A DNA stretch of 40,075 nt from Lentisphaeria bacterium. Lineage in GTDB: Bacteria > Verrucomicrobiota > Lentisphaeria > Victivallales > Victivallaceae. Below, piece after piece: positions 1 through 32,462 of this stretch (its first letter is position 1; each line of letters starts with the position of its first letter). Location of the stretch: the NCBI GenBank assembly GCA_017450705.1, contig JAFSTC010000108.1, positions 1-40,075 on the forward strand. The letters run 5' to 3'. Position numbers and translations under genes: made by a program. The notes under the pieces were generated by a model that worked only from the letters and a program-made list of their open reading frames with translations, had not been told where the DNA came from and did no database searches.

Positions 1-2001
1 AACGACAGCCTGACCATTACGGAAAATTCCGCGGTTTCCGGTATTTCTTACCTCAATGAAGGCGACGATCAGGTGACCGTATCCGGCAACTCTCAGCTTT
101 TCGGCAATGTGTACCTCGGCAGCGGCAACGATAAGCTGACCATCACAGACAACTCCCAAGTGCAGGGCGATGTACATATCAACGAAGGCAGCGACACTGT
201 GTCCGTCACCCAAAGATCCCGACTTTGCGGTTCCATCTATGGTCTTGAGCCCTGCGCCATAACCATCGACAGCTCCAGTACGATTGAGGGAATGCTTCAT
301 GCGCGATCCGATTTCCGTTTCGTACTCAACTCCGCGGCCGAGAAACATGCTCTTTCCCGAATCGACAAAAATGTTTTCAATATCGCCTCTGTCAGTGTCG
401 ATATAGCCGATGCCAGTGTCGGCTCTTATGTGCTTTTCGCCGCGGGAGAAGAGGTTACCGATGCTGGTCTTCTCGATCAGATCAAAGTTGCCATCTCCGG
501 AGGTGGACGAGACGATTACACTCTGTGCGTAAATGACACAGCGGTCAGTGATCTGGCCGATTTGTCCGTTGAAGATCGAATGCTGAAGTTGTATGTGAAA
601 ATTGCCATGCCCAAGGTCATTTCTGTCACAGCGGACATCACCGACGTGACGTATCAAGATGTGACTGTCGAAGCAACCTTCAGCGAAAATGCAACGATCA
701 CTCAGTATTCCCGCGATGGAAATTTGTGGCAAAACTACTCCTCGGAGGGAGTGCGGATGACCGAGAACGGCACGGTGTATTTCCGAGGCATCGACGCGGA
801 CGGAAACATTTCCAAAGTAACGAGTTACGATGTTAGCAACATCGACAAAGTCGCTCCGGGCAAGCCCACCGCGACCGCGAACACCACCGCGCCGACCAAC
901 GGCAATGTCACCGTGACTGCGACCTTCAGCGGAGACTCGGCGCAGAAACAGTACAGCTTCGACGGCACGACGTGGAGCACCTACACGACCGGGGTGGTGA
1001 TGACCGCCAACGGCACCGTCTATTTCCGCGGCATCGACGCTGCGGGCAATGTTTCCGAGGTCACGACTTACGAGGTCTCCAACATCACTGCTGCACCGGA
1101 GAAATCGGTTGCCGCCGACCTCAATGGCGACGGACGGGCGGACATCGTCATGACCATCACCCAGCCGGGACACGGCGCCGAGGGCGCCACGGGGGCGTGG
1201 CTGATCCAAAGCGATCAGACTGCCGCGTGGGGCGACCTCTCGACGCTCAATCCGGGCTGGGAGATCTTCGGCATGGGCGTCACGACCGCCGGGAAGAGTA
1301 CAAATGACGTTTATATCCGCAATACCGACAACATCATCGGCGCGTGGGCCACGGGCGATTCGGGAGAGGTCACGAACTGGGTGACCGTTGGCCAGTTCGA
1401 TGCCGATACGCAGATCCTCGGCCTCGGCGATTTCAACGGCAACGGGCAGACCGATCTTCTTCTGCGCAACGTCAACGGCGCGGTGGGTTGTTTCTTCACC
1501 GGCGGCGAAACGACCGGCTGGAACTACTTTCAGAGCCTCGGCGACGAGTGGAAGATCTGTGCCGTGGGCGACCTCAACGGCGACGGAAGAGACGACCTGG
1601 TGCTCAAGCACGACGCCGGCTTTGCGGGAAGCTGGCTCACCCAAAGTAACGGCACCATGGCGTGGGCCGATCTCGATACCTTGCCCGACGGTTTTTCCAT
1701 CGTCGGCGCGGGGGATTTTGACGGCGACGGTACCGACGACGTGCTTCTCAAAACCGGCAATTACTACGGTGCGTGGCTTGTCGGGGACGGCAGCGCCAAG
1801 GCGTGGTTCGGTCTCGGCGATCTGGGGGACGTCACCGTGGAACAGGTTTCCGACTTCGACGGCGACGGCGTGGACGACTTGCGCGTCCGCACTTCCGCGG
1901 GCGATCTTGGTTCTCTCCTCGTCCGCGGCGAAGGCGACCTCGAGTGGCACTATTACGGTTCCGTCGGCACCGAATGGAACACCCGCCTCGCGGCGATATA
2001 A
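1..2001 (+). CDS. Large surface protein, 3' part (beta-repeat, Ig-like and FG-GAP/VCBS repeats)
   Basis: The reading frame is open from base 1, so the gene starts outside the window; the GTG at 73 is an internal valine. The visible 666 residues fall into three parts. Bases 1-300 encode imperfect units of roughly 27 residues (GNDxLTITDNSxVxG pattern), as in repetitive adhesins. Bases about 600-1090 encode two similar Ig-like modules, each with an NGTVYFRGIDAxGN core. Bases about 1110-2001 encode FG-GAP/VCBS-like repeats with five calcium-loop motifs (DLNGDGRAD, DFNGNGQTD, DLNGDGRDD, DFDGDGTDD, DFDGDGVDD). It ends in TAA with no obvious sorting motif or membrane helix. The likely role is an extracellular or cell-surface scaffold or adhesin; the binding target cannot be read from the sequence. 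The first 800 bases are visibly less GC-rich than the rest, which suggests a mosaic gene. Confidence 0.85.
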   Translation, partial: NDSLTITENSAVSGISYLNEGDDQVTVSGNSQLFGNVYLGSGNDKLTITDNSQVQGDVHINEGSDTVSVTQRSRLCGSIYGLEPCAITIDSSSTIEGMLHARSDFRFVLNSAAEKHALSRIDKNVFNIASVSVDIADASVGSYVLFAAGEEVTDAGLLDQIKVAISGGGRDDYTLCVNDTAVSDLADLSVEDRMLKLYVKIAMPKVISVTADITDVTYQDVTVEATFSENATITQYSRDGNLWQNYSSEGVRMTENGTVYFRGIDADGNISKVTSYDVSNIDKVAPGKPTATANTTAPTNGNVTVTATFSGDSAQKQYSFDGTTWSTYTTGVVMTANGTVYFRGIDAAGNVSEVTTYEVSNITAAPEKSVAADLNGDGRADIVMTITQPGHGAEGATGAWLIQSDQTAAWGDLSTLNPGWEIFGMGVTTAGKSTNDVYIRNTDNIIGAWATGDSGEVTNWVTVGQFDADTQILGLGDFNGNGQTDLLLRNVNGAVGCFFTGGETTGWNYFQSLGDEWKICAVGDLNGDGRDDLVLKHDAGFAGSWLTQSNGTMAWADLDTLPDGFSIVGAGDFDGDGTDDVLLKTGNYYGAWLVGDGSAKAWFGLGDLGDVTVEQVSDFDGDGVDDLRVRTSAGDLGSLLVRGEGDLEWHYYGSVGTEWNTRLAAI

Positions 2002-2012
2002 GCCTCCCCCGA

Positions 2013-2038
2013 CTTGTCACGCCGTCTTGTCACGCCGT
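2013..2038. repeat. Perfect 13-bp tandem repeat and related degenerate copies
   Basis: CTTGTCACGCCGT occurs twice head to tail directly after the surface-protein stop codon. Related, degenerate copies lie on the other side of the small ORF: TGTCAGACTTGACGCA at 2272-2287 and TGTCAGACCGAACGCA at 2299-2314. The small ORF at 2071-2268 is therefore bracketed by similar short repeats. No function is known to me; it could be a trace of slippage or of cassette-like insertion. Confidence 0.6.
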
Positions 2039-2070
2039 AACGCCAGTGAAGGCGGACGGACAAGGAGCTT

Positions 2071-2268
2071 TTGAGCGAGACGCTGGATCCCCTGATCGCC
2101 GAACGGCTCTCCAATCTGGCGGTGAAGGAGAGCGGCTTCTACACCGTCGACATCAAACTGGGGGAGGAGAAGAAGTCCTCCGCGCGCCTCTCCTTCAGTT
2201 TCGAGGGCTTCTCCGTCGGCGGTCCCGACGATCAGATCGTGCGCTTCCTCGACTGGATGATGTACTGA
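2071..2268 (+). CDS. Small hypothetical protein, possibly a gene remnant
   Basis: A 65-codon ORF starts with TTG at 2071. AAGGAG at 2062-2067 lies only 3 nt before it, which is too close for a convincing ribosome site, and the same frame is closed by TAA at 2038 and TGA at 2047. The product is acidic and soluble-looking, with no signal peptide or membrane segment, and ends in IVRFLDWMMY. A near copy of that tail, IVRFLDGMMY, is encoded at 11038-11067 without a matching upstream ORF, so this may be a decayed or mobile C-terminal module rather than a whole gene. The family is not recognised. Confidence 0.35.
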   Translation: MSETLDPLIAERLSNLAVKESGFYTVDIKLGEEKKSSARLSFSFEGFSVGGPDDQIVRFLDWMMY

Positions 2269-2380
2269 CCCTGTCAGACTTGACGCATCCACCCTCCTTG
2301 TCAGACCGAACGCACGGTCTTTCTTCCATTTCCTTTTTCAACCGGCAATTCTGAAAAAAATACGGGATAAACGCCAAAAA

Positions 2381-2423
2381 AACTGATAGTATCAGTTGAA
2401 AACGGTAAAATCTGTACTATATT
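2381..2423 (+). promoter_or_regulatory. Promoter with 17-bp palindromic operator (copy 1)
   Basis: The perfect palindrome AACTGATAGTATCAGTT (2381-2397) overlaps a -35 box TTGAAA (2396-2401). A 16-nt spacer leads to the -10 box TATATT (2418-2423). The TIM-barrel gene starts at 2459. Nearly the same block of about 46 bp is found at 4750-4792 before the GntR regulator. Palindromes with this layout are typical GntR-family operators, and binding here would block RNA polymerase. That the regulator at 4891 binds both copies is inferred from the sharing. Confidence 0.8.
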
Positions 2424-2458
2424 CTCCTCTTGAAAGGCAGATGACAGAGGAAAATATC

Positions 2459-4507
2459 ATGGAACAAAAATTTGAGTACCATCTGTGGACGGAACTGCTG
2501 GCATTCGAGAAAAACGATCCGGACCGGGGCGCGGCACGTTATCTGGACTCGCTGCCGAGGAAGCCGGATTCGATCTTCCTGTTTGTTGCCGCAGCCGATT
2601 TCCCGTTCAGCCACAAGGGGATGGAGAGAGAATACGAACTCTCTCCGGCCGTATGTTCACGCAATGCGCATCCGCGGAACGAACAGCGGGAGCGCCAGAA
2701 ATGGACGAATTTTCAGTTGCGCGAACTGATCGGGAACCTGAAGAAACGCGGGGTGCCGACTTATCTCTCGATGTTCACCTGCTATTACCGGGGCGCATTC
2801 GGTCCGGAATGGTTGTGTGACCATGAGGAAATGATCGAAGATTTCGGTTACTGCTGCCGGCTGAATCCTATCTCCGCAAAGGACGACGGGACGCTGTGTG
2901 AAGAGATCTTCGGCCCGAAGGTGGCGGAACTGTGCCGGGATTATGGTTTCGCCGGATTCCACGGGGCCGACCGGTTCAATTCGACAGGACTGCTGTACCG
3001 GAAGGTGATGGACGACACGATGACGAAGCTTTTCCTGCAGCGGACCGGTCTGAAGGCGCCGGATTACGTAACGGATCCCTGCAACGGCCATCCGGCGAAG
3101 CAGAAAAAACGGATGAGCTGGCTCTGGGGCGAACACCGACGGGAGGTCACGAAATTCATCCGGACCCGCTGGAACGAGTTCTGGAAGGAAGTCGCGTCGC
3201 AGGTCCATGCCGTCGGCGGGCAATGCCTGATGAACTCCTCCTTCACCCGCGGCTGTCAGTCTGCGGCCGCCTGGCTCGGGATCGACTACAAAGCCGTGGT
3301 CGAGGCCGGAGTCGACGCGCTGGTGTGCGAGACGGTGCCGTTGTCGATGTCCAACCAGGCCGATATCTGCGCCTGGAAGACTTTTCCCGATCTGCACCGT
3401 CATTACCATAACTGGTGCATCACCGCGATGCAGGAGATCCGCGCGTATCTGCCGGACACCCGGATCATGTTCCTCCACGGCTGCAAGGACGTGGTGGAGG
3501 ACTGGGACAACGTCCGTCAGTCCCCGGCCGGGTATGAACGCGAACTTTTCGCGCTCTCTTCGCTCTGCCATTACCGAAAGGGGAAACTTTATCGCGCGGC
3601 GGACGGTCTGACTGCGTGTCTGGCGGACGGCTTTTCCGCTTTGGATTGGGATTTTATCTCGGCGAGATGGAAGTCGGCGATCCGCCCGGATGAGCTCGTT
3701 CGAGCGGGGGAAATGGTATTCGTCTGGGACGACAAGATGGTTTCCGACGGGGTGGAAGATTATTTCTTCGATTACTTCCCGACCGCGTATGACACGATCT
3801 ACAGATTCAAATATGAAGGTTTTGCCATTCAATCGACCGCCCGGTCGGACGAACTGACCGGCGTTCACGAACCGCTGATCGTTCCGACGGCGCATCTGCT
3901 GGGACGCGATGCTGTGACGAAGCTGATCGATCGGCCCGAACCAGTGGTTCTGGTCGGTCGGCAGGAGTTTCTTGAGGAGTTCGCGCCGAAAGGCCTGTCA
4001 TTCAAGGACTCCCGGATCATGGTGCTGATCCTCGATCCCGGAGTCGAACCGGCGGAAAAGACCTATATGCCGCAGGCTGCCCGTCCGGCGGTCAACGAAG
4101 GCGGGTCCAATTTCCTTGAGGTCAATTCCTTTACGACGGTCCCGCCGCAGATGGGATTTGATCCGCAGCTGTGGCAGGATGTGTTTGCCGCGGTGCGGAG
4201 CGTGCTGACCTCCTGGAAGAAAGGCGCCGGCCGCTTCGTGCCGGAAGTGGTCGAGCCGACCGGAGAATGCCAGCTGCTGACGCGCGAGTACACAGGCGGC
4301 CGGCTGGAGACGATCGTGGAAAACCTTGGGATCCGCAACCTGCCGGTGACCCTGCGGTATTCAAAACCCTTCAGGAACGGTCGGATCACCGGTTCGTATC
4401 CGTTCTATCCGCGGAACCTGACGGAAAACTCAATGACGGTGCGTACTACTGCCAACCGCGGCATGTGCGCTGTGGAAGTCACGCCGAAGGAGAATGACGC
4501 GAAATGA
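2459..4507 (+). CDS. TIM-barrel glycoside-hydrolase-like protein, family unassigned
   Basis: A protein of 682 residues without a signal peptide, hence probably cytoplasmic. The start at ATG 2459 is chosen because AGAGG (2446-2450) sits 8 nt upstream and the promoter ends at 2423; the in-frame ATG at 2441 has a poorly spaced site. The middle of the protein resembles enzymes with a (beta/alpha)8 fold, with segments such as AGVDALVCETVPLS, RIMFLHGCKDVVEDW and ALDWDFISARWK. The C-terminal 200 residues look like a separate amidotransferase-like or beta-sandwich part. I cannot assign a known GH family or the catalytic acids. It lies behind the same operator as the neighbouring regulator, so it is probably induced by that regulator's ligand and acts on an imported sugar. 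Confidence 0.7.
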   Translation: MEQKFEYHLWTELLAFEKNDPDRGAARYLDSLPRKPDSIFLFVAAADFPFSHKGMEREYELSPAVCSRNAHPRNEQRERQKWTNFQLRELIGNLKKRGVPTYLSMFTCYYRGAFGPEWLCDHEEMIEDFGYCCRLNPISAKDDGTLCEEIFGPKVAELCRDYGFAGFHGADRFNSTGLLYRKVMDDTMTKLFLQRTGLKAPDYVTDPCNGHPAKQKKRMSWLWGEHRREVTKFIRTRWNEFWKEVASQVHAVGGQCLMNSSFTRGCQSAAAWLGIDYKAVVEAGVDALVCETVPLSMSNQADICAWKTFPDLHRHYHNWCITAMQEIRAYLPDTRIMFLHGCKDVVEDWDNVRQSPAGYERELFALSSLCHYRKGKLYRAADGLTACLADGFSALDWDFISARWKSAIRPDELVRAGEMVFVWDDKMVSDGVEDYFFDYFPTAYDTIYRFKYEGFAIQSTARSDELTGVHEPLIVPTAHLLGRDAVTKLIDRPEPVVLVGRQEFLEEFAPKGLSFKDSRIMVLILDPGVEPAEKTYMPQAARPAVNEGGSNFLEVNSFTTVPPQMGFDPQLWQDVFAAVRSVLTSWKKGAGRFVPEVVEPTGECQLLTREYTGGRLETIVENLGIRNLPVTLRYSKPFRNGRITGSYPFYPRNLTENSMTVRTTANRGMCAVEVTPKENDAK

Positions 4508-4749
4508 AATCGGATCGGACGGTGATGACCGTATGCGGTCCGGTATCTGCGGGGCGGTACGGGATGATCCCGTCCCGTGAGCGCCTGTAATATCGATCCG
4601 CGGGATCGGGCGGCATCGGAACGACCATGGGACCCGGAGGACGGCACTGCCAAAATTCCGCCGATGCTTTGCTCGCCCCGAAAACGGTCTTGCCCGGAGC
4701 GCCCTCCGGCATTGACGCTGAGGAGGAAAACGTTTGAAAAAATGCAAAA
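4508..4749. other. Intergenic stretch without a recognisable gene
   Basis: Together with the promoter that follows, this is the longest gene-free stretch of the window (4508-4890). I see no convincing ORF. One short inverted repeat, ACGGGA-TGA-TCCCGT around 4558-4572, could form a small hairpin but is not followed by a T-run, so I do not call it a terminator. Confidence 0.5.
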
Positions 4750-4792
4750 AACTGATAGTATCAGTTGAAAAGAGGAAAATCTGTGCTATATT
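4750..4792 (+). promoter_or_regulatory. Promoter with 17-bp palindromic operator (copy 2)
   Basis: AACTGATAGTATCAGTT (4750-4766) overlaps the -35 box TTGAAA (4765-4770); a 16-nt spacer leads to TATATT (4787-4792). Sequence and geometry match the copy at 2381-2423 almost base for base, including the spacer. It precedes the regulator gene at 4891, so the regulator probably controls its own expression as well as that of the 2459 gene. Confidence 0.8.
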
Positions 4793-4890
4793 CTCTCCAA
4801 AGGGTTTCTGTTGGCTTCTTTTGATATCTGATAATATTGGTTTGCGGCGTTCGGGACCGCCGCGGATCGTCGGAGGAGCGGAAGACGGCG

Positions 4891-6195
4891 ATGTATCAGA
4901 AAATTTACAACTACATACTTGATCTTATCGAGAATGAATTTGAAGCGGGAGACAGGCTCCCCGGCGCGCGGCAGATAGCGAAGTTGTTTTCCTGCGCGCT
5001 GCCCAAGGTCCAGGCTGTTCTGAACTCTCTCGAGCAAAGCGGTGTCGTGGAATGCCGGGAGCGCAGCGGTACTTATGTTCGGGAGGGGTTCGGTCAACGC
5101 CTGCTTCCGTGTAACATCGCCTGTTACCGCATGGTGAGTTCTCTCTCTGAAGAACAGCTGAAAACGCTTCAGAGGGAGTTTCCTTCAATGCATGTTTCCT
5201 CCAAATTTTCCCAGGGAGGTGTGGAAATCGCTCCTTCGCTCGATATCCAGATCAGGCAGCAGAATTTTCTGGACGTGAATTCCGTTTTCGAAGAATGCTT
5301 CCCGGACTACAGGGAAAAATTTTACATGCAGTCCCTTGAGCCCTTCAAGAGAAATGGCAGACTCTATGCAGTCCCCCTTGTTTTCTCCCCTCAGCTGCTG
5401 TGGTACAATCCGGTCTTTTTTAAAAAGTACAACGTTCCTCTGCCACGGATGGATTGGGGGAAAAAGGAATTTTTTGAGGCGCTGAGGAGTTTCAAGGGAC
5501 ACCTCCCCGGTCGAAATATCGTCAATTACTCTCCTTCGTTCTATCAATGGATGGGATTTCTCCACAGTGCGGGAGGGCGCATATTCGGTCTGCCCGGCCA
5601 GGAACCGGTCCAAGTAGACTCGCCTGCAACGATTTCCATCAGCCGAACTTATGTCGAGCTGCTGAAAGAATTCGGACTTGACCGGAAATTCAATTCCAAT
5701 GCCATCGCCGCGTTTGCCCAGGGGAAAATGCCGATGTTCGTCGGCTTCAAGGACAATGCCAAACTGTTCAAAAAGCATGATCCCGATTTCGTCCGGGCGG
5801 CGGTCTATATGCCGCGGCTGGGAGGCGCGGTGAATTATCAGGGGGTCATGCTCATTGCCTTCAGGAAGTTCAACAGCAGGGACACCGTAAAACGGATGCT
5901 CAAATTCTGGCTGTCCGAAGAGGTGCAGGAATCGCTCGGCCGCGATGACTGCGGGATCCCCATTCTCCGTTCCGCCGCGCAGAAGAGTCTGGATCCGGGG
6001 AAGTCACCCGATTCTCTGTTTTTGAAGCAGCTGCCGAATCTCTGTTCCGATTACAACATCGACTCCGAGGAAACAGGTTCTGTCGTGATGCGGGCGAGCA
6101 AGCTCCTTAACACAGGAAAGCCGGAGGATGTGGAAAAGGTGCTCCGTGACATGGCGACGACATTGCGTTTTTTGATGCGGTTGCGCGAAAAATGA
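4891..6195 (+). CDS. GntR-type regulator with solute-binding-protein-like sensor domain
   Basis: The ATG at 4891 begins the GntR fold. GGAGGAG at 4872-4878 is 12 nt upstream and a nearer GGAAG is at 4880-4884; an in-frame TTG at 4837 would add 18 unrelated residues. Residues about 1-70 form a winged helix (RLPGARQIAKLF, then KVQAVLNSLEQSGVV and RSGTYV). Residues about 95-420 resemble a family-1 extracellular sugar-binding protein (RLYAVPLVFSPQLLWYNPVFFKKYNVP, later AFAQGKMPMFVGF), but there is no signal peptide, so it should act as a cytoplasmic ligand sensor. Most sugar-sensing GntR relatives carry UTRA, FCD or LacI-like sensors instead. The matched operators at 2381 and 4750 are its likely targets. 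The ligand is probably an oligosaccharide (inference). Confidence 0.85.
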   Translation: MYQKIYNYILDLIENEFEAGDRLPGARQIAKLFSCALPKVQAVLNSLEQSGVVECRERSGTYVREGFGQRLLPCNIACYRMVSSLSEEQLKTLQREFPSMHVSSKFSQGGVEIAPSLDIQIRQQNFLDVNSVFEECFPDYREKFYMQSLEPFKRNGRLYAVPLVFSPQLLWYNPVFFKKYNVPLPRMDWGKKEFFEALRSFKGHLPGRNIVNYSPSFYQWMGFLHSAGGRIFGLPGQEPVQVDSPATISISRTYVELLKEFGLDRKFNSNAIAAFAQGKMPMFVGFKDNAKLFKKHDPDFVRAAVYMPRLGGAVNYQGVMLIAFRKFNSRDTVKRMLKFWLSEEVQESLGRDDCGIPILRSAAQKSLDPGKSPDSLFLKQLPNLCSDYNIDSEETGSVVMRASKLLNTGKPEDVEKVLRDMATTLRFLMRLREK

Positions 6196-6206
6196 GGCAA
6201 TATCAC

Positions 6207-6399
6207 ATGAGAAAGAACACTGTACGGGCCAGAATGATATCTGTTTTGACGGCGTGCGCGGGTGTCTGCACCGCGGAGGACCCATATTTCGGACGATTTC
6301 GGATATATCAGAATGGAACGGCGACAGCCATCCGGGGGACTTTCGATGTCATCCGCCGAACCTGGCTGTCTGCCACAACTTTAAAGGAGGAGATCCGCA
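6207..6399 (+). other. Gap region with a possible remnant of a secreted-protein gene
   Basis: Between the regulator and the prepilin gene an ATG at 6207 (another in-frame one at 6192 overlaps the regulator stop as ATGA) opens a frame with a signal-peptide-like start (MISVLTACAGVCTA). The frame runs on into the prepilin gene in a different phase up to 6638, where it is clearly not the coding frame. It could be the truncated 5' end of a lost gene or a chance ORF in the leader of the prepilin gene. I see no promoter or terminator in this stretch. Confidence 0.2.
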
Positions 6400-6996
6400 A
6401 TGAAGAAGTTTTTCAATCCAGCAAACAGCCGGAAGATTCGATCGGGCCGGGAGAAGTTTGCCGTGTCCCGGGGCGCCCAATTCACGCTTATCGAACTTCT
6501 TGTTGTTATCGCCATCATCGCGATTCTGGCGGCCATGCTGATGCCTGCGCTGCAGCAGGCCCGCGAGAGAGGACGATCGATTTCCTGTCTCGGCAATACG
6601 CGGGAGATCGGCACCGCGAATTTGAGTTATCTTCATGACAACAGTGATTTCCTGATCCCGCGCGTCCTGCCGCTTGCGGGGCTCGCGAACAACAGGGACT
6701 GGACCTTTTCATTCTGGCATTTGAATTACCTGAGATCGGGTGTCTGGGATCCGGCGAACAACAATAATTCCTATCCCGCGGGGATGTTCAAATGCCCCAC
6801 GGAAGGGCAGGAAACTCTCCCGGGGGTGACACGCTGGAAAAGCTGGCGCGGTTCCCACTACGGACAGACGGAATACATAGGGGGATATTTCAGTTCTTCC
6901 GACGATAAGAAAAACCGTTTTTTCCAGAAGCTGACGCAAATCAGAAAGCCGAACAAAACCTGTTTCGCCGGTGACAAGGCTCCCGGAGACGTTTAG
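6400..6996 (+). CDS. Prepilin-type protein, cut short by in-frame TAG
   Basis: A strong Shine-Dalgarno AAAGGAGGAG (6383-6392) precedes ATG 6400 by 7 nt. Residues 1-27 form a long basic leader, followed by the type II/IV prepilin helix [19 protein letters not shown]. The residue before the phenylalanine is Gln (RGAQ/F), not the usual Gly. The frame stops at TAG 6994-6996 after 198 residues. The same frame then continues for 64 codons that supply the H-X9-DG domain expected in such proteins (see 6997-7191), so the intact gene was 263 codons long. The family is exported through the inner membrane and is pseudopilin-like; its role here is unknown. The gene directly precedes a secreted beta-helix protein, a pairing repeated twice on the reverse strand. 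Confidence 0.85.
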
Positions 6997-7191
6997 TATT
7001 TCTCGGCCGGCGCGGACGAACTTCTGCGTTCCCAGCGGCACAACGCTTCGGGAAATTATTCTTTCCTTGACGGTCATGCCGAAAACCGTCTGTTCAATCA
7101 GATCCCGAACAAACTCTCCCATCCCAACTCGGACTGGGCGAAATACCGTTTCTGGGGCCATGCCCACGTCGATCTTTACAATCTCGACTGA
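6997..7191 (+). pseudogene. Detached C-terminal part of the prepilin-type gene (H-X9-DG domain)
   Basis: Directly after the TAG at 6994-6996 the same frame stays open for 64 codons and ends in TGA 7189-7191, 18 nt before the next gene. It encodes H-NASGNYSFL-DG, an exact H-X9-DG motif as found near the C-terminus of many PVC prepilin-type proteins, and ends FWGHAHVDLYNLD. There is no start codon with a ribosome site for separate translation. The simplest reading is a TGG-to-TAG nonsense mutation or a base-call error; translational readthrough is the alternative. Confidence 0.75.
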
Positions 7192-7209
7192 TCCGGAAGG
7201 GGACAAAAG

Positions 7210-9651
7210 ATGATGAAAACCGTGCTCGGGGGTGTGCTTGCCGCATCGGCGCTTGTTTCGACCATGCCCGCTGTCGGTGGCATATCCGAGATCGAATTCG
7301 AACCGGGCGTGACCGATTGCCGACTGGCGTACCGGCGACCGATGTCGAAGTTGGAGATCCGTCCCGCGGGTGGCGTCTGGCAGGAGATCCCGCTGTGTGA
7401 AAAGTCGCCGGTGGAATCCCGTTTCTGGCGGGGAACCATCCTCGGTCTGAAAGCGGGGCAAAGGTACGAATTGCGGGCGAAACCCTCGCAGGGACGTGTG
7501 ATCGTCTGCGGGTTCTCCACGCAGCCGGAGATACCTCGGAGGATTTTGCGGCTCAAGCCGACTTTCGAAAACTGTTCCTTCGAACTGCCCGATCACGAGG
7601 GTAAAGCGTGCATGGCGGAATACCGCGCAGTCGGCGGATCATGGCGTCAGGCCCCGCCTCCCGTCTGGTTTCCCGACGAAAGGTGCTGGCGCGGCGCGTT
7701 TCTCCAGCTTCGGGAAAATACGAAGTATGAAGTTAGACTGAAACTTCCGGATCAGGAAATTGCGGGATCTTTCCGCACATGGGATCCCGATCTTCCCGTC
7801 GCCAGAACCATTGTCATTCCCCGATTGCCTTTTCGGGTCACCGAATCGGGAAAACCGGGCGCCTATGTCCGGTATGTCGCGGAAAAACCGCTGAAGGGAC
7901 ATCTCAAACTGGAGGGGCTCCGGTATGTCATTCTCGACGGACTGAAACTGGACTGCGACCGCAGTTTTGTGGGACTCCATCTGAACAAGTGCAGTCATGT
8001 GGCGGTTCGGAACTGCGACATATCGAATTTCGGTTCCCCCGCATTCCGGAGCTGGGATCCGGCGGCTTTCGGCAGAGTCATGCCGAAGCCGCCCGTAAAG
8101 TCGTTGTACGGCGGCGGAGGACTGCGGATCTCGGAGTGTGAAAACGTGTTGATCGAGCGCTGTTTCTTCCACCATCCGTCCACGGGGGCGAATTCCTGGT
8201 ATTACAGCCATCCGACCGGGTCGGAGGCGATCGTGATGGACTGCGCAAAAGGCGGCGTTGTCATCCGTTACAATGATTTTGCCGCTTCCGATCTCCTCCG
8301 CTGGGATGATCCCGTCACCGGCATAGGCAACGGCTGCAATAACGGCGGGTTCGGTGAAAACGGAGATGTGTACGGCAACTATTTCGCTTTTTCCAATGAC
8401 GATGCCTGTGAACTGGAAGGGGCCGGCAGAAATCTGCGTTTTTACCGCAACCGCATAGAGCAGACCTATGCCGGCGTCAGTACCGGGCGCTGTTCTTTCG
8501 GCCCCGTCTACATCTTCCGGAATCTGCTGGTCAACGCGGGAGATCAGCACGGCCACTTCGGCCCCATGCTGAAAAACGGGATGCAGATCCAGGGCAAGGG
8601 GACGGTGTTTTTCCTCTACAACACGATCGCGGCCGCACACGGCGGACCCAGCTGGATTTTTCACAGTTTTCATTCCGCCCGGCCGATCATTCCTCTCCCG
8701 AAATACAAGGGCGTTTCCCGGGGCAACGTTTTCTGCGGACGGCAGAATGTCTTTCCCGACAATTTTTTTCTGTGGCCCGGCGATTACGACAGGGATGTTT
8801 TTTCTTTCGGTTCGCAGGATTTCCGGGATTTCCTGAACCGGAACGGACAGGAAAAAAATGCTCTCTGGGGAAATGTGCGCTTTGTCGACCCGGCCAAGGG
8901 GATTTATACCCTGGCCGAAGGGTCCTGCGGACGGAATTTCGCCGAAAAGGGGTTTCTCGAAGGCGTCCGGCATGCCGGCGCCTGCCAGGAAAAGGATGTT
9001 CACGCTCTGCTGGGCAGAAAACTTTTCTTCACCGCCGATGCGGCATATTCGAGCACGCCGGGGAAAGAGCTTTCCTTTACCGTGCGTGCGGTTGCGGATA
9101 CGCCTTTCCGCGTCGTGACCAATGATGATTTCTTTACGGTCCATCCCATGTCCGGGACTTTGAAGGCCGGAGTCTCTCAAACGTTCACGGTGCGTGCCGA
9201 TGCGGAAAAAACGCCGCTGCGCCGGATCTATCGGGGCGTTTTCTTCATCCGCCGGGACGACGGATTTTCACTGCCGCTGGGTTTTGCCTTCGATCGGAGA
9301 AACAATCCCGTCTCGGGAATGGAAATATCCAACGGCGGCACCGTCTCGCTTCCGGCTGCGGATGCCTGGTTCATATTTCTCAAAGGCACCTCGTGGAATG
9401 GTCAGGGCGTGCTGGAAGTCGGTCGGCGAAAGTTCGAAGTTCGTCTCCAGCCGTACCTGCGGGACGGCGTCGAGATCATCCGTCTCTGCGACAGGAGGAC
9501 GGGAAGGCTTCTGCGCCTGCAGTTGGAGCCCGGCAGCTGCCGGATCAGGGTGGAGGGGGACCGGAAGTCGCGTCTGAAAGTGCGGTCCGTCATCATCACA
9601 CGGGAACCTGATCTGATCTTCAACGGCCGGCTTCAGGAGGAGCGTATATGA
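7210..9651 (+). CDS. Secreted right-handed beta-helix protein (polysaccharide-lyase-like)
   Basis: An 813-residue protein with a signal peptide (MMKTVLGGVLAASALVSTMPAVGG). AAGGGG at 7197-7202 is well placed for ATG 7210; the adjacent ATG at 7213 is also possible. Residues about 30-200 contain two fibronectin-like segments with similar spacing (GQRYELRAK and NTKYEVRLK). Residues about 230-560 show the short repeating strands of a parallel beta-helix (LRYVILDGLKLD, CSHVAVRNCDIS, CENVLIERCFF, GVVIRYNDF, NLRFYRNRIEQ). The C-terminus adds beta-sandwich domains. The fold is used by pectate-lyase-like and other glycan-acting enzymes; the exact reaction is not clear and no catalytic residues can be named. 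It overlaps the next gene by 4 nt (ATGA), so the two are translationally coupled. Confidence 0.8.
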   Translation: MMKTVLGGVLAASALVSTMPAVGGISEIEFEPGVTDCRLAYRRPMSKLEIRPAGGVWQEIPLCEKSPVESRFWRGTILGLKAGQRYELRAKPSQGRVIVCGFSTQPEIPRRILRLKPTFENCSFELPDHEGKACMAEYRAVGGSWRQAPPPVWFPDERCWRGAFLQLRENTKYEVRLKLPDQEIAGSFRTWDPDLPVARTIVIPRLPFRVTESGKPGAYVRYVAEKPLKGHLKLEGLRYVILDGLKLDCDRSFVGLHLNKCSHVAVRNCDISNFGSPAFRSWDPAAFGRVMPKPPVKSLYGGGGLRISECENVLIERCFFHHPSTGANSWYYSHPTGSEAIVMDCAKGGVVIRYNDFAASDLLRWDDPVTGIGNGCNNGGFGENGDVYGNYFAFSNDDACELEGAGRNLRFYRNRIEQTYAGVSTGRCSFGPVYIFRNLLVNAGDQHGHFGPMLKNGMQIQGKGTVFFLYNTIAAAHGGPSWIFHSFHSARPIIPLPKYKGVSRGNVFCGRQNVFPDNFFLWPGDYDRDVFSFGSQDFRDFLNRNGQEKNALWGNVRFVDPAKGIYTLAEGSCGRNFAEKGFLEGVRHAGACQEKDVHALLGRKLFFTADAAYSSTPGKELSFTVRAVADTPFRVVTNDDFFTVHPMSGTLKAGVSQTFTVRADAEKTPLRRIYRGVFFIRRDDGFSLPLGFAFDRRNNPVSGMEISNGGTVSLPAADAWFIFLKGTSWNGQGVLEVGRRKFEVRLQPYLRDGVEIIRLCDRRTGRLLRLQLEPGSCRIRVEGDRKSRLKVRSVIITREPDLIFNGRLQEERI

Positions 9652-11003
9652 GCGGACTGCCCTTCCGGTTTTTCTGGACCTGGGATCACTCGACCAACTG
9701 GTGTCTGAATGTGCGGGGGGCTCAGAACACCGGCGTTGCGAACTGCTACACGAAAGATCCGAAGTTCTTCGTCCGGGATTACAAGCGGGCGATCGACTGG
9801 TGTGCCGCCCACAAGATGAGTGCCATGGGGGCCGCGGGATTGCTGCGGGACATCCACGGGGGCGTCGATTCGGTCCGCGAGATCTGCGCCTATGCCCGCG
9901 AACGGGGTGTCAGGATGTACATGATCGCCGGATTGTTTTCCTACGGAGGCATCTATTACGAGGGGGCCTCACGGTGGTCCCTGGACCGTTTTCTCACGGA
10001 TCATCCGGAATGCATGGGGCGCGGCGAAGACGGTTCTCCTCTGTGCCGGCACATGGTCGGCTACGGCGGCAACAGGCCGATCCTCACCGGCTGCCCCTCC
10101 AGTCCTGAACTGAACAGGTACGTTTTGGATTCTCTCGATTGGCTGTTCGGCGCGATCCCGGAACTGGGAGGCATCCAGATGGAGTCGGGCGACGTCGGCA
10201 TCTGCCAATGTGATCGATGCCGGTCCCGGCGGGAGGCCGGTTCCGGCGAAGCGCCGGCGGAAATGTCCTTCAATGATATGGCGCGCATCTACGCAAAATG
10301 CGCGAAGACGGTTTGGAACAGAAATCCGGACGCCTGGGTCATTTGTGAGACCTACCGCCATTTTCTGGATAAGGAATGCCGCTTTTTCTCATCCGACACG
10401 CCGTCTCCCGAACTTCGGGAACTGCTTGATCTGCCGGAGAAAACCTTCTGGCAGTGGAAATGCGACCGGCGGTTGAAGTCCGGTGACTGGGCGGGTGAAC
10501 CCGTACCGGAGTCCCTGCGGAAATTCCGCCACATCATGCGGGCGCATTCCGGCACGCAGTGGTGGGGCGGACGGCACACGCTGGCCGTGGACGAGATACG
10601 GCGCCAGTGTCTGCTGAGCAGCCGGTCCGGTCTTCAGGGCGTGTCGATTTTCGGCGAGGGATCCGTTTTTCACACGAATGTCGAGATGAACTACCTGGCT
10701 CTGGCGTATTTTTCCGATCATCCCGAAAATTCGATCGGAGATTTTGCCGGGGACGTCATGGCCCCCTTGCTGGGGGGCAAACTTCAGGCGGAAAAATATC
10801 TGGAATTCGGCGTGCTGCACAGAGATCCCGTCCGTATTCCGGCGGCGGTCGCGGAGATCGCGCGCATCCTGCGGGGCGTCGCCGACTACGATGTCATGCG
10901 GCGCTGGGAATACCTGGCGTCCTTCCTGAATGCCTTTTACTGGGAATTTCGTCATCCCGACTACGAGGAGCGCGTGGAGACCAACAATCGGAATATGTTG
11001 TGA
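9648..11003 (+). CDS. TIM-barrel glycan enzyme-like protein with CxCxxC motif
   Basis: A 451-residue protein without a signal peptide. Its ATG overlaps the stop of the beta-helix gene (ATGA). The sequence has the look of a (beta/alpha)8 glycosidase: CAYARERGVRMYMIAGLF, then ELGGIQMESGDVGICQCDRCRSR, WVICETYRHF and SGLQGVSIFGEGS. The CQCDRCRSR segment resembles the cysteine cluster of DUF4838/alpha-glucuronidase-like barrels, so that superfamily is the best guess, but the family is not firmly assigned. As the last gene of the 2459-11003 locus it probably works on products released by the secreted enzyme encoded just upstream. Confidence 0.65.
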   Translation: MSGLPFRFFWTWDHSTNWCLNVRGAQNTGVANCYTKDPKFFVRDYKRAIDWCAAHKMSAMGAAGLLRDIHGGVDSVREICAYARERGVRMYMIAGLFSYGGIYYEGASRWSLDRFLTDHPECMGRGEDGSPLCRHMVGYGGNRPILTGCPSSPELNRYVLDSLDWLFGAIPELGGIQMESGDVGICQCDRCRSRREAGSGEAPAEMSFNDMARIYAKCAKTVWNRNPDAWVICETYRHFLDKECRFFSSDTPSPELRELLDLPEKTFWQWKCDRRLKSGDWAGEPVPESLRKFRHIMRAHSGTQWWGGRHTLAVDEIRRQCLLSSRSGLQGVSIFGEGSVFHTNVEMNYLALAYFSDHPENSIGDFAGDVMAPLLGGKLQAEKYLEFGVLHRDPVRIPAAVAEIARILRGVADYDVMRRWEYLASFLNAFYWEFRHPDYEERVETNNRNML

Positions 11004-11016
11004 ACAGCCCCCGTCC

Positions 11017-11067
11017 TGCTTTCTCGGCGGCAATATCGTCCGCTTCCTCGACGGGATGATGTATTGA
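11017..11067 (+). pseudogene. Remnant with the same C-terminal tail as the 2071 ORF
   Basis: In the gap after the 9648 gene, one frame reads CFLGGNIVRFLDGMMY and then TGA (11065-11067). The small ORF at 2071-2268 ends GGPDDQIVRFLDWMMY. The match covers the last 10 residues with one change and is also visible at DNA level, while nothing upstream here matches. It is best read as the leftover 3' end of a second copy of that gene. Confidence 0.5.
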
Positions 11068-11112
11068 CTGCAGTAATTGCCCCTTTTTTTGCGAAAAACG
11101 CTGTGCCGAGTA

Positions 11113-11141
11113 TTGCCCCGGGGCAGAAGACGGGTTATATT
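11113..11141 (+). promoter_or_regulatory. Promoter with 12-bp palindrome on the -35 box
   Basis: TTGCCC (11113-11118), a 17-nt spacer and TATATT (11136-11141) form a good sigma-70-type promoter before the metallophosphoesterase gene at 11178. The perfect palindrome TGCCCCGGGGCA (11114-11125) lies on the -35 box and could be a repressor site. A ribosome site GGAAGGGA follows at 11161-11168. Confidence 0.6.
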
Positions 11142-11177
11142 AAATCCGGGTAAAAACACAGGAAGGGAGTTCGCAAT

Positions 11178-12302
11178 ATGATAAACGGAAGATTTCTTTT
11201 CATTTCGGTCGTTCTTTTCTGCGCCGCGTTCGCTTTTGCGGAACCCGCCGCCGCACCCAAGGCTCCGGAAGCGGCCGCGGCAAAAACTTTTCAGGCGCCG
11301 CAGCTCAGCCACCCCGATTCGTGGACCCTGGTCGTCGTTCCCGACGTGCAGGCCTATGTGGAGCGGCCGCGCAACCACGGGATCGTCGATATCATGAACA
11401 CCTGGATCCTCGACCATCAGGACCCCCTCAAAATCCAGCAGGTGCTCTTCACGGGCGACCTCGTTTACCGCAATGATCAAAAATCGCCTACGCCAGGCCG
11501 CAATTCCCTGATGGCCAAGGAGCAGTGGAAGGCCTTCTCCCGCCTGATGGAGCGTCTTGACGGAAGGATCTCCTACATCCTCTGCACCGGCAATCATGAC
11601 TACGGCCACTATTCGGCGGAGAGCCGTGCGACGTGGTTCAACGAGTTTTTTCCCACCGACCGCAATCCGCAGACCCGCAAACATCTGGTGGCGTGCAACT
11701 GCAATGCTTTCGACGTCGTAAGTCTCGAAGCCTCCGCCTACGAGTTCACGGCGCCTCATCCGGACAACCGGAAATTTCTGGTGATCACGCTTCCCTTCGC
11801 CCCCTCTGACGCCGACCTCGCGTGGGCGAAGAAACTGGCGGATACGCCCCAGTATGCTGATCATATCGGGATCGTCCTCACCCACTCCTACCTCGCCTGG
11901 ACCGGCCAGCGGTTCCAGAGCGAAAAGTATAAACTGAACAAAAAGGGCGGCAACGCAGGGGAGGGCATTTTCACGAAGCTCGTCCAGCCCGCGAAAAATA
12001 TCCGGCTGGTGATCTGCGGTCATATCGCCGCGCCCGACAAGTGGGAGCGGGGCATCGCCTTTTCGATGGATAAAAACGCTTCGGGCAAGTCCGTCGCCCA
12101 GATGGCCTTCAACACCCAGGCCATCGGCGGCGGTTTCCACGGCAACGGCGGCGACGGCTGGCTGCGGCTGCTGGAATTCATGCCCGACCGCAAGACGGTC
12201 AAGGCCACGACGTTCTCGCCGCTCTTCTGGATCTCGCCCTCCACGCGCCATCTCGCCTGGAAGCACGACGAGCGCAGTGAATTCACTTTCCAACTGGATT
12301 GA
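11178..12302 (+). CDS. Secreted calcineurin-like metallophosphoesterase
   Basis: A 374-residue protein with a clear signal peptide (MINGRFLFISVVLFCAAFAFA, then an Ala/Pro-rich linker). The metal-binding blocks of the calcineurin-like fold appear in order: VVPDVQAY (the usual DxH is DxQ), FTGDLVYRND, CTGNHDYGH, LTHSYLAW and VICGHIAAPDKW. Length and block order fit extracellular phosphoesterases. The substrate is not evident; phosphorylated sugars, nucleotides or phosphodiesters are all possible. It is the first gene of a four-gene forward operon (next gene after 17 nt) behind the promoter at 11113-11141. Confidence 0.85.
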   Translation: MINGRFLFISVVLFCAAFAFAEPAAAPKAPEAAAAKTFQAPQLSHPDSWTLVVVPDVQAYVERPRNHGIVDIMNTWILDHQDPLKIQQVLFTGDLVYRNDQKSPTPGRNSLMAKEQWKAFSRLMERLDGRISYILCTGNHDYGHYSAESRATWFNEFFPTDRNPQTRKHLVACNCNAFDVVSLEASAYEFTAPHPDNRKFLVITLPFAPSDADLAWAKKLADTPQYADHIGIVLTHSYLAWTGQRFQSEKYKLNKKGGNAGEGIFTKLVQPAKNIRLVICGHIAAPDKWERGIAFSMDKNASGKSVAQMAFNTQAIGGGFHGNGGDGWLRLLEFMPDRKTVKATTFSPLFWISPSTRHLAWKHDERSEFTFQLD

Positions 12303-31247: not shown

Positions 31248-31267
31248 TTGTTTCCATTTGTTTCCAT
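31248..31267 (-). repeat. Tandem 10-bp repeat at the reverse transcription start
   Basis: TTGTTTCCAT occurs twice back to back (31248-31257, 31258-31267); in the operon's direction it reads ATGGAAACAA twice. It lies just downstream of the reverse -10 box, near the expected transcription start, and is a candidate operator for the divergently encoded regulator. Confidence 0.5.
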
Positions 31268-31275
31268 ATCTTTAT

Positions 31276-31304
31276 ATTTTAGCACATCCGGCGGGAAAAA
31301 GCAA
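31276..31304 (-). promoter_or_regulatory. Promoter of the nine-gene reverse operon
   Basis: On the reverse strand TTGCTT (31304-31299), a 17-nt spacer and TAAAAT (31281-31276) form a good promoter about 90 nt before the NagA-like start codon. Its -35 box is only 7 nt from the forward -35 box at 31312, so the two promoters are back to back and could be controlled together. Confidence 0.65.
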
Positions 31305-31311
31305 GAGCGGT

Positions 31312-31340
31312 TTGAAAAAAAAGCGTATTTACGATATATT
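31312..31340 (+). promoter_or_regulatory. Promoter of the GntR/LacI-type regulator gene
   Basis: TTGAAA (31312-31317), a 17-nt spacer and TATATT (31335-31340) lie 31 nt before the TTG start of the regulator. The surrounding A/T-rich stretch and the adjoining reverse promoter make this a compact divergent control region. Confidence 0.7.
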
Positions 31341-31370
31341 AAAGGAACATTTTCAGAGCGGGAGGTCGTT

Positions 31371-32462
31371 TTGGAACGCAAAAAGGATCAGGTCTACGGC
31401 CAGCTCAAGCGGGCGATCATGGACGAGACCCTGCCGCCCGGCAGCCGTCTGCCGACGGAGATCCGTCTGGCCAGAAGTCTCGCCGTCGGTCAGGTGACGC
31501 TGCGCAGCGCCCTGGCCCGTCTGGAGGCGGAGGGGCTCGTCGAGCGCATCCGCAGCCGCGGCACCTTTGTCACGGGGCGCAGCCGCAGGCGGACCTTCCT
31601 TCTGATCCAGCCGGACGGGACCGAGACCCTCGAGACCCCCAGCCGCTACATTGCCGCCGGGCTCGAAGAGGAGGCTGAGAAGCGGGCGGTGACCATCGAG
31701 GTCTGTCCCGAGAGCCTCTTCGTCTCCTTCTCCGAAGAAGAGCGGCGGGCGATCATCCGCTCCCGGAGCATCAGCGGCGTGATCCTCGAAACGGGGCACC
31801 GGCACATTCCCGAAAAACTCGCCTGCGAGGTGAAAAAACTGGGTCTGCCGGTAGTCGTCCCCCACGGGTTGAGCGGCGACGGCACCTTCGGTTTTTTCCT
31901 GCTCCGCACCGATGAAAAACGGGCTTTCGGCGACGCCTATCTCTATTTGGCGAAGCACGGGCACCGGCACATCGCCTCCCTCTTCCTGCGGATGCCGGAG
32001 GAAAATCCCGGCGAACTGCGCGGTTTCACTCCCGATACTCTCCGCGCTTTTCTAAAGGAAAACGGACTGGCCTCCTCCCTCGATTCGGTCGCCCTCGTGC
32101 CCAACACGCAGGAGGATATCCGGCGTCAGCTCGAGATCTGGTTCCGCTCCCCCGCGCCTCCCACAGCCATTTTGTGTCACTCCGACCGGGTCGCCATGCG
32201 GGTATACGCCGTGCTGCGTTCCCTGAAGCTCCGTGTGCCCGAAGACGTTTCCGTCATGGGGTACTCCAACTACCCCGGGGGACAGCTGCTCACGCCTCCG
32301 CTCACGACCATCGACACCCGGCTCAAGGAGTGCGCCCGGCTGGCGCTGGAGAGATTGTTCGACTCCGGAAGCTGGTTCGGTTTCCCGGTGGCGAAACGCG
32401 AGGCCTTCACCCCCTACGCCCTTATCGAACGCGAAAGCGTTGCCGATTGCCGGAACCGGTAA
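31371..32462 (+). CDS. Transcriptional regulator, GntR winged helix plus LacI-type sugar-binding domain
   Basis: The start is TTG 31371, supported by GGGAGG (31360-31365) 5 nt upstream and by the promoter ending at 31340; the frame is open earlier but would begin before the promoter. Residues about 1-70 are a GntR winged helix (RLPTEIRLARSLAVGQVTLRSALARLEAEGLVERIRSRGTFV). Residues about 78-360 are a Peripla_BP_3/LacI-like sensor (TAILCHSDRVAMRVYAVLRSL, PEDVSVMGYSNY, LLTPPLTTIDTRLKECARLAL), as in AraR-type regulators. It is encoded divergently from the nine-gene glycan operon and is its likely regulator; the effector is probably a sugar released by that operon (inference). Confidence 0.9.
   Translation: MERKKDQVYGQLKRAIMDETLPPGSRLPTEIRLARSLAVGQVTLRSALARLEAEGLVERIRSRGTFVTGRSRRRTFLLIQPDGTETLETPSRYIAAGLEEEAEKRAVTIEVCPESLFVSFSEEERRAIIRSRSISGVILETGHRHIPEKLACEVKKLGLPVVVPHGLSGDGTFGFFLLRTDEKRAFGDAYLYLAKHGHRHIASLFLRMPEENPGELRGFTPDTLRAFLKENGLASSLDSVALVPNTQEDIRRQLEIWFRSPAPPTAILCHSDRVAMRVYAVLRSLKLRVPEDVSVMGYSNYPGGQLLTPPLTTIDTRLKECARLALERLFDSGSWFGFPVAKREAFTPYALIERESVADCRNR

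Follow-up and report, generated by a model that had tools for sequence, protein, structure and literature searches.

Organisation of the locus

The window, by which we mean the whole 40,075-nucleotide stretch of the Lentisphaeria bacterium contig that was analysed, contains two genes preceded by nearly the same promoter sequence. We refer to these genes, and to the proteins that they encode, by their start positions, 2459 and 4891; the features are collected in Table 1.

Table 1. Positions of the promoters, operators and genes in the window
Feature	Position	Strand	Basis
First promoter/operator block, before the 2459 gene	2377..2426	+	46/50 identical to 4746-4795
Operator O1 of the 2459 promoter, AACTGATAGTATCAGTT; final two bases common to the -35 box	2381..2397	+	exact match; orthologue-only matrix 26.5 bits
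Promoter of the 2459 gene, TTGAAA-16-TATATT	2396..2423	+	10/12 consensus bases
Target protein, 682 aa	2459..4507	+	sequence searches
Second promoter/operator block, before the regulator	4746..4795	+	46/50 identical to 2377-2426
Operator O1 of the regulator promoter	4750..4766	+	exact match; equivalent position in 5/5 close orthologues
Regulator promoter, TTGAAA-16-TATATT	4765..4792	+	10/12 consensus bases
Third operator, ATCTGATAATATTGGTT, in the regulator 5' leader	4826..4842	+	18.8 bits, matrix from orthologue sites only
GntR-SBP regulator, 434 aa	4891..6195	+	PF00392 aa 2-63, PF13416 aa 145-364, PF01547 aa 149-347, each exceeding its Pfam cut-off
Prepilin-like gene, downstream of the regulator	6400..6996	+	N_methyl / prepilin models

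The 4891 protein had been described in the first-pass annotation as a GntR regulator. The N-terminal GntR winged helix is confirmed (PF00392, 42.1 bits against a cut-off of 27), while the description has to be corrected to that of a GntR-SBP fusion, with an ABC-type solute-binding domain, SBP_bac_1/SBP_bac_8, after the winged helix (41.8 and 39 bits against cut-offs of 27 and 26). The Pfam scan at E 0.01 gives only GntR, SBP_bac_8, SBP_bac_1 and a sub-threshold HTH_41, and thus none of the sensors of the named GntR classes, namely FadR/FCD, HutC/UTRA, MocR/aminotransferase and AraR/LacI-like; NCBIfam gives matches in the winged helix only, far under the cut-offs. The regulator structure predicted from 6 sequences (pLDDT 53.2) is too poor for a fold search. 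A profile of 16 regulator relatives matches GntR domains and also ABC-transporter sugar-binding proteins in the PDB, the latter (7c0v, 7x0o, 6dtq) over about aa 84-427 of the regulator. Differing from these transport proteins, the sensor of the 4891 protein is joined to an N-terminal DNA-binding domain and is therefore presumably cytosolic.

It is noted that the AraR-type GntR regulators are of similar make-up, with the GntR helix joined to a LacI-like (periplasmic-binding-protein-like) sugar sensor, but that sensor is of the LacI/Peripla_BP fold family whereas SBP_bac_1/8 is a different binding-protein group. A second GntR gene of the window, at 31248-32462, has the LacI-like sensor (Peripla_BP_3) and hence the AraR-type make-up, so that two kinds of GntR sugar regulator are present in one window. 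The sensors of the FadR type are FCD domains, and to our knowledge the known GntR subclasses all use sensors other than SBP_bac_1/8. At the level of literature listings, no GntR-SBP regulator of this group was recognised. The GntR-superfamily autorepressors NanR and DgoR (PMC8012715, PMC12288454) resemble the 4891 protein in the winged helix, in palindromic or repeated operators in the region of their own promoter and in small catabolic regulons, but they are named there as FadR-type or GntR-type, in contrast to the SBP_bac_1/8 sensor of the 4891 protein.

Two promoter/operator blocks

The presence of two near-identical promoter/operator blocks, as proposed in the first-pass annotation, is borne out by their 46/50 identity, making them the longest direct repeat in 2000-6300, and by the 17-bp palindrome AACTGATAGTATCAGTT, here called O1, which is exact in both. 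Shuffles of the window contain on average 0.02 matches to the palindrome, even with up to 3 mismatches, and the 3.97-Mb genome to which the window belongs has only the two exact copies in the window, the next best places having 3 mismatches. The two TTGAAA-16 nt-TATATT promoters that go with O1 are the best two of nine promoter-like matches in 2200-7300, and the 20-mer AAAATCTGTRCTATATTCTC, which covers the end of the spacer, the -10 box and the bases beyond it, is found genome-wide at both these promoters only, plus one place with 3 mismatches. Compared in the register of the repeat, the similarity of the two blocks stops outside the block edges. The centre of O1 lies at about -41 from the assumed start.

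In addition, a third, weaker operator, not noted in the first-pass annotation, is present in the leader of the regulator gene, centred 76 bp after O1 and thus at about +35 from the assumed start. The next place in the window after it scores 10.5 bits, and its 18.8 bits are attained by none of 2000 shuffled versions of 4508-4890.

Several simpler identities of the blocks were considered and ruled out. A terminator-like site is absent at the blocks; Rfam gives no match to a known RNA in 1-12000; and the sole tandem repeat in 1-8000 is a 13-bp one at 2009-2038, which rules out a tandem array. A chance palindrome is ruled out by the shuffles, by its rarity in the genome, by its co-occurrence with one clade of regulators and by the scores of the matrix made from orthologues, the last two being described below.

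Conservation of the operator in close orthologues

Regulator matches at E 1e-20 or better occur in 27 of the 387 genomes of a phylum sample. Among 40 genomes searched, four regulator orthologues were found with an identity of 46-51%, the match after these being at 36% or lower. When named genomes were scanned, five orthologue loci emerged, the yak locus being additional to the four, together with one distant Brachyspira match. The five loci belong to Lentisphaeria/Lentisphaerae MAGs, four of them titled as from ruminant hindgut, namely sheep colon (two), yak cecum and roe deer cecum, and the fifth being SIG84, which has no stated source. The window protein and the five orthologues group in a single clade, with support of 100/100, in a tree built from 51 regulators.

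In all the five orthologues (G016, G002, G013, G014 and the yak locus) the palindrome is located directly 5' of a TTGACA -35 box in the regulator's own promoter, with the G014 site lying close to a contig end, where this contig and the one with the regulator have an exact overlap of 84 bases. Moreover, all five have a second, hybrid site, TGACA(A/T)TATCA, on the -35 box itself, 13 bp further on, which neither promoter copy of the window has.

The exact core CTGATANTATCAG occurs twice in the genome of the window (G000), three times each in G016 and G002, twice in G013, once in G014 and not at all in G011 and G005, that is, in 1-3 copies in 5/5 genomes having the regulator clade and in 0 copies in the 2/2 without it, while the reversed core, taken as a control, is absent from all 7 genomes. 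Five of the 11 core sites are at regulator promoters, one is at the 2459 promoter, four form pairs before a putative serC gene in G016 and G002, and one is inside a giant open frame in G013. With a matrix trained on just the five sites of the orthologues and run over 663 kb of regions, 8 sites scored at least 18 bits: 4 regulator promoters, on which the matrix had been trained, and the 4 serC sites, which had played no part in the training.

It follows that the palindrome is not scattered at random through the genome; such scattering was what the first-pass annotation had named as speaking against its proposal. There are two exact copies, tied to the regulator clade. The term regulon used there holds for two promoters by exact sites, and weaker sites may exist elsewhere, since with 2 mismatches allowed the genome contains the 13-mer core at 44 places and the reversed control at 22. 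The two further cores with a single mismatch (on C53 and C93) fall within long open reading frames and appear to be due to chance. A search of five genomes with the operator plus -35 box, at 3 mismatches, was rejected, its matches being mixed with chance ones.

The serC pairs consist of two near-perfect operators 32 bp apart (L083:8419-8467 and L084:11716-11764, in G016 and G002). Measured in both genomes from the end of the likely -10 box, the site centres are 103 and 135 bp upstream, and the operators are conserved while the surrounding sequence has diverged. The gene 3' of them we take, from reading by eye, to be serC (the names serC, gap and pgk were all given by eye). The pairs possibly link the regulator to central metabolism.

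Operators upstream of homologous regulators

A set of 52 GntR-SBP genes, with the window and yak genes included and one fragment among them, was used to look for the pattern TGAYNNNRTCA. It is present within 250 bp upstream of 30/52 genes, as compared with a mean of 1.06 and a maximum of 5 in 200 runs of dinucleotide shuffles and with 0/52 in a 250-bp gene-body control; one of the 30, the G011 site TGATCCTGTCA, is inside an upstream coding frame and may be due to chance. Within 300 bp the count is 31/52, and about 21/52 homologous regulators have no site there, an operon-head site explaining only some of these. In 23/52 the site is on a near-consensus -35 box that is followed at 16-18 nt by a near-consensus -10 box. 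The window is not among these 23, its O1 being just upstream of the -35 box. The conservation of O1 in the orthologues and the occurrence of the pattern upstream of homologous regulators together argue that the operator is real.

With a relaxed operator-on-promoter pattern, 578 kb of regions gave 23 regulator promoters and five other matches, three of which (G011, G014b, G002b) are at the head of the apparent operon of the regulator itself, about 3 kb upstream; the remaining ones are just before a regulator on the opposite strand (G242b) and before a LacI-like gene (G050a). The operon head of G016b also has a site, TTGACATAGTCAG. The strict pattern, TTGACNNNGTCA plus TATAAT, gave 10 matches in 15 chosen genomes, several of which were picked as known carriers: 8 are at listed regulator promoters, one precedes a gene at the end of a contig, which has a winged helix of this kind and no visible sensor part, and one is elsewhere. 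In G315, a TTGACNNNGTCA promoter near 1672 of L163 (G315:C77:20171), which is not before a GntR-SBP gene, may be a second target.

Many homologous regulators have a pair of upstream operators, separated by 35-117 bp (G036, G033b, G029b, G219, G315a, G368a, G041a, G297, G048a, G048b, G315b and G038a), with an obvious common helical phase not apparent. The residues of the recognition helix were inspected by eye as a predictor of the fourth operator base (C or T), and a clear rule was not found.

Proposed regulation by the 4891 protein

Based on the above results we propose a model, which we consider probable, of an autoregulated repressor regulon with two promoters, released by a sugar, in which the second promoter was copied in this lineage. 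In the model, a dimer of the 4891 protein is predicted to bind TGATANTATCA at O1 before its own gene and before the 2459 gene, where O1 abuts the -35 box and has two bases in common with it, and the protein would probably also occupy the weaker leader site. The bound protein would block RNA polymerase at both promoters. A sugar or oligosaccharide bound in the intracellular SBP domain would then release the protein from the DNA, so that the regulator and the 2459 protein would rise together. The sequence itself shows the sites, how conserved and how rare they are, the spacer common to the two promoters and the domains of the regulator. Autoregulation by the 4891 protein is the best reading of these, while the binding itself, the sign of the control, the class of the ligand and the direction of the copying are what we infer.

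Repression is favoured by the sites being on or against the -35 box, by the consensus -35 box in the orthologues and by the site in the leader. The points against the model are that O1 at about -41 would suit an activator too, that steric repression leaves the serC pairs unexplained, that the 2459 target gene is not conserved beside the orthologues, where an unrelated gene adjoins the regulator, that about 21/52 homologous regulators lack a site within 300 bp, and that weaker sites may exist elsewhere. An alternative is thus that the regulator activates, or does both, helping RNA polymerase at a weak -35 box from its position near -41 and acting on serC in the relatives through the upstream pairs. 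This alternative, which we regard as unlikely, would account for the non-consensus TTGAAA in both window copies, and also for the serC pairs, whose sites have equal spacing in two genomes and stand at distances, about 103 and 135 bp from the likely -10 box on its upstream side, for which steric repression is no explanation. It would, however, be at odds with the consensus TTGACA with a second site on top of it in 5/5 orthologues, with the 23/52 homologues where the site is on a near-consensus -35 box and the -10 box then follows, and with the third site in the leader.

Gut Lentisphaeria have many secreted-protein cassettes. If the model is true, an operator that can be read from the promoter, together with a sugar-type sensor beside the cassette, would allow the prediction of genes that switch together and ligand tests for each regulator.

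Origin of the second promoter

The spacers of the two window promoters, taken outside the operator and promoter boxes, are identical at 12/16 positions (binomial P 6e-5 to 1.1e-4). By contrast, the window spacers share only 2-7/16 with the orthologue spacers, which among themselves share 4-11/16, partly via the second site. Since the window promoters thus have in common a spacer not shared by the relatives, the promoter duplication that the first-pass annotation had called likely is supported. As to the direction, no operator with 2 or fewer mismatches was found at 8 homologous 2459 loci in 5 genomes, with flanks of about 1.5 kb, or as far as the contig reached, being covered. Because all the orthologous regulators have the operator while the 2459 homologues do not, the simpler direction would be that the regulator's promoter was copied in front of the 2459 gene, in this lineage, and the 2459 gene was probably recruited to the control of the regulator. 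The window pair would then be a compact example of regulon growth by promoter copying.

Without duplication, the second promoter would have gained its operator independently, with the shared spacer being selected or due to chance. The stopping of the similarity at the block edges, by which the flanks give copying no support, fits such an origin, and the regulator may contact bases of the spacer; we nevertheless find it quite unlikely, given how much closer the two spacers are to each other than to those of the orthologues, the non-consensus -35 box and the lack of the second site in both window copies, and the occurrence of the 20-mer at just one other place in the genome, with 3 mismatches.

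A further alternative, in which some other protein binds the palindrome or the palindrome is a repeat element, so that its position before the regulator is incidental, is very improbable: the two sites upstream of serC in G016 and G002 and the one inside the giant open frame in G013 would fit this, but the site goes with the regulator clade (5/5 genomes with it, 0/2 without), has too few copies for a mobile repeat, appears as palindrome variants at the equivalent position of homologous regulators and, in the strict pattern, is before such regulators in 9/10 matches in the 15 chosen genomes, one of them without a visible sensor part.

Returning to the copied-promoter repressor model, a wider claim can be put forward, for which we see about an even chance, that the homologues make up a repressor family widespread in the phylum, with an intracellular ABC-type sugar-binding sensor and an operator that merges with the -35 box or abuts it (TTGACNNNGTCA, with the variant TGATANTATCA), the window regulon having gained a gene by copying of the regulator promoter. 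While each of the parts is ordinary in kind, the interest is in the architecture of the sensor and in the family-wide operator rule. If this reading is true, the sequence would suffice to match regulator, class of ligand and target operon with one another at dozens of loci for secreted enzymes.

The 2459 protein and the neighbouring genes

The 2459 protein, which had been labelled a TIM barrel in the first-pass annotation, has no match in Pfam, NCBIfam or the PDB; among nine homologues, one weakly matches GHL6 (E 0.073). Its structure predicted from the single sequence has a pLDDT of 35.6 and is unusable for a fold search. Homologues are present in 5 other genomes among the 40 searched (6 when G000 is included).

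In the orthologues the gene next to the regulator encodes a protein with a length of about 574-594 aa (complete at four loci, partly read at the yak locus). One of these proteins (L035:10386-12134) has 583 aa and is without a match in Pfam or NCBIfam, as is the protein beside the G016 regulator. G016 and G002 contain additional copies that are more distant, while no copy is present in the genome of the window. Homology of the 2459 protein to this gene was rejected, the best E in BLASTP against four of the proteins being 0.79, which is not significant.

Downstream of the window regulator are a prepilin-like gene and a beta-helix protein. Such a prepilin-like gene is a usual neighbour in this family: a pilin motif is found just downstream in 23 of the 46 homologous regulators with enough sequence, and the 8 homologous 2459 loci have pilin-like genes within a few kb. 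Note also that the prepilin-like frame of the window is cut by a TAG at 6994-6996, with the same frame continuing to 7191 and having the pilin-like end NYSFLDGHAE, so that the gene may be broken, the assembly may be wrong here, or the cause may be a stranger one.
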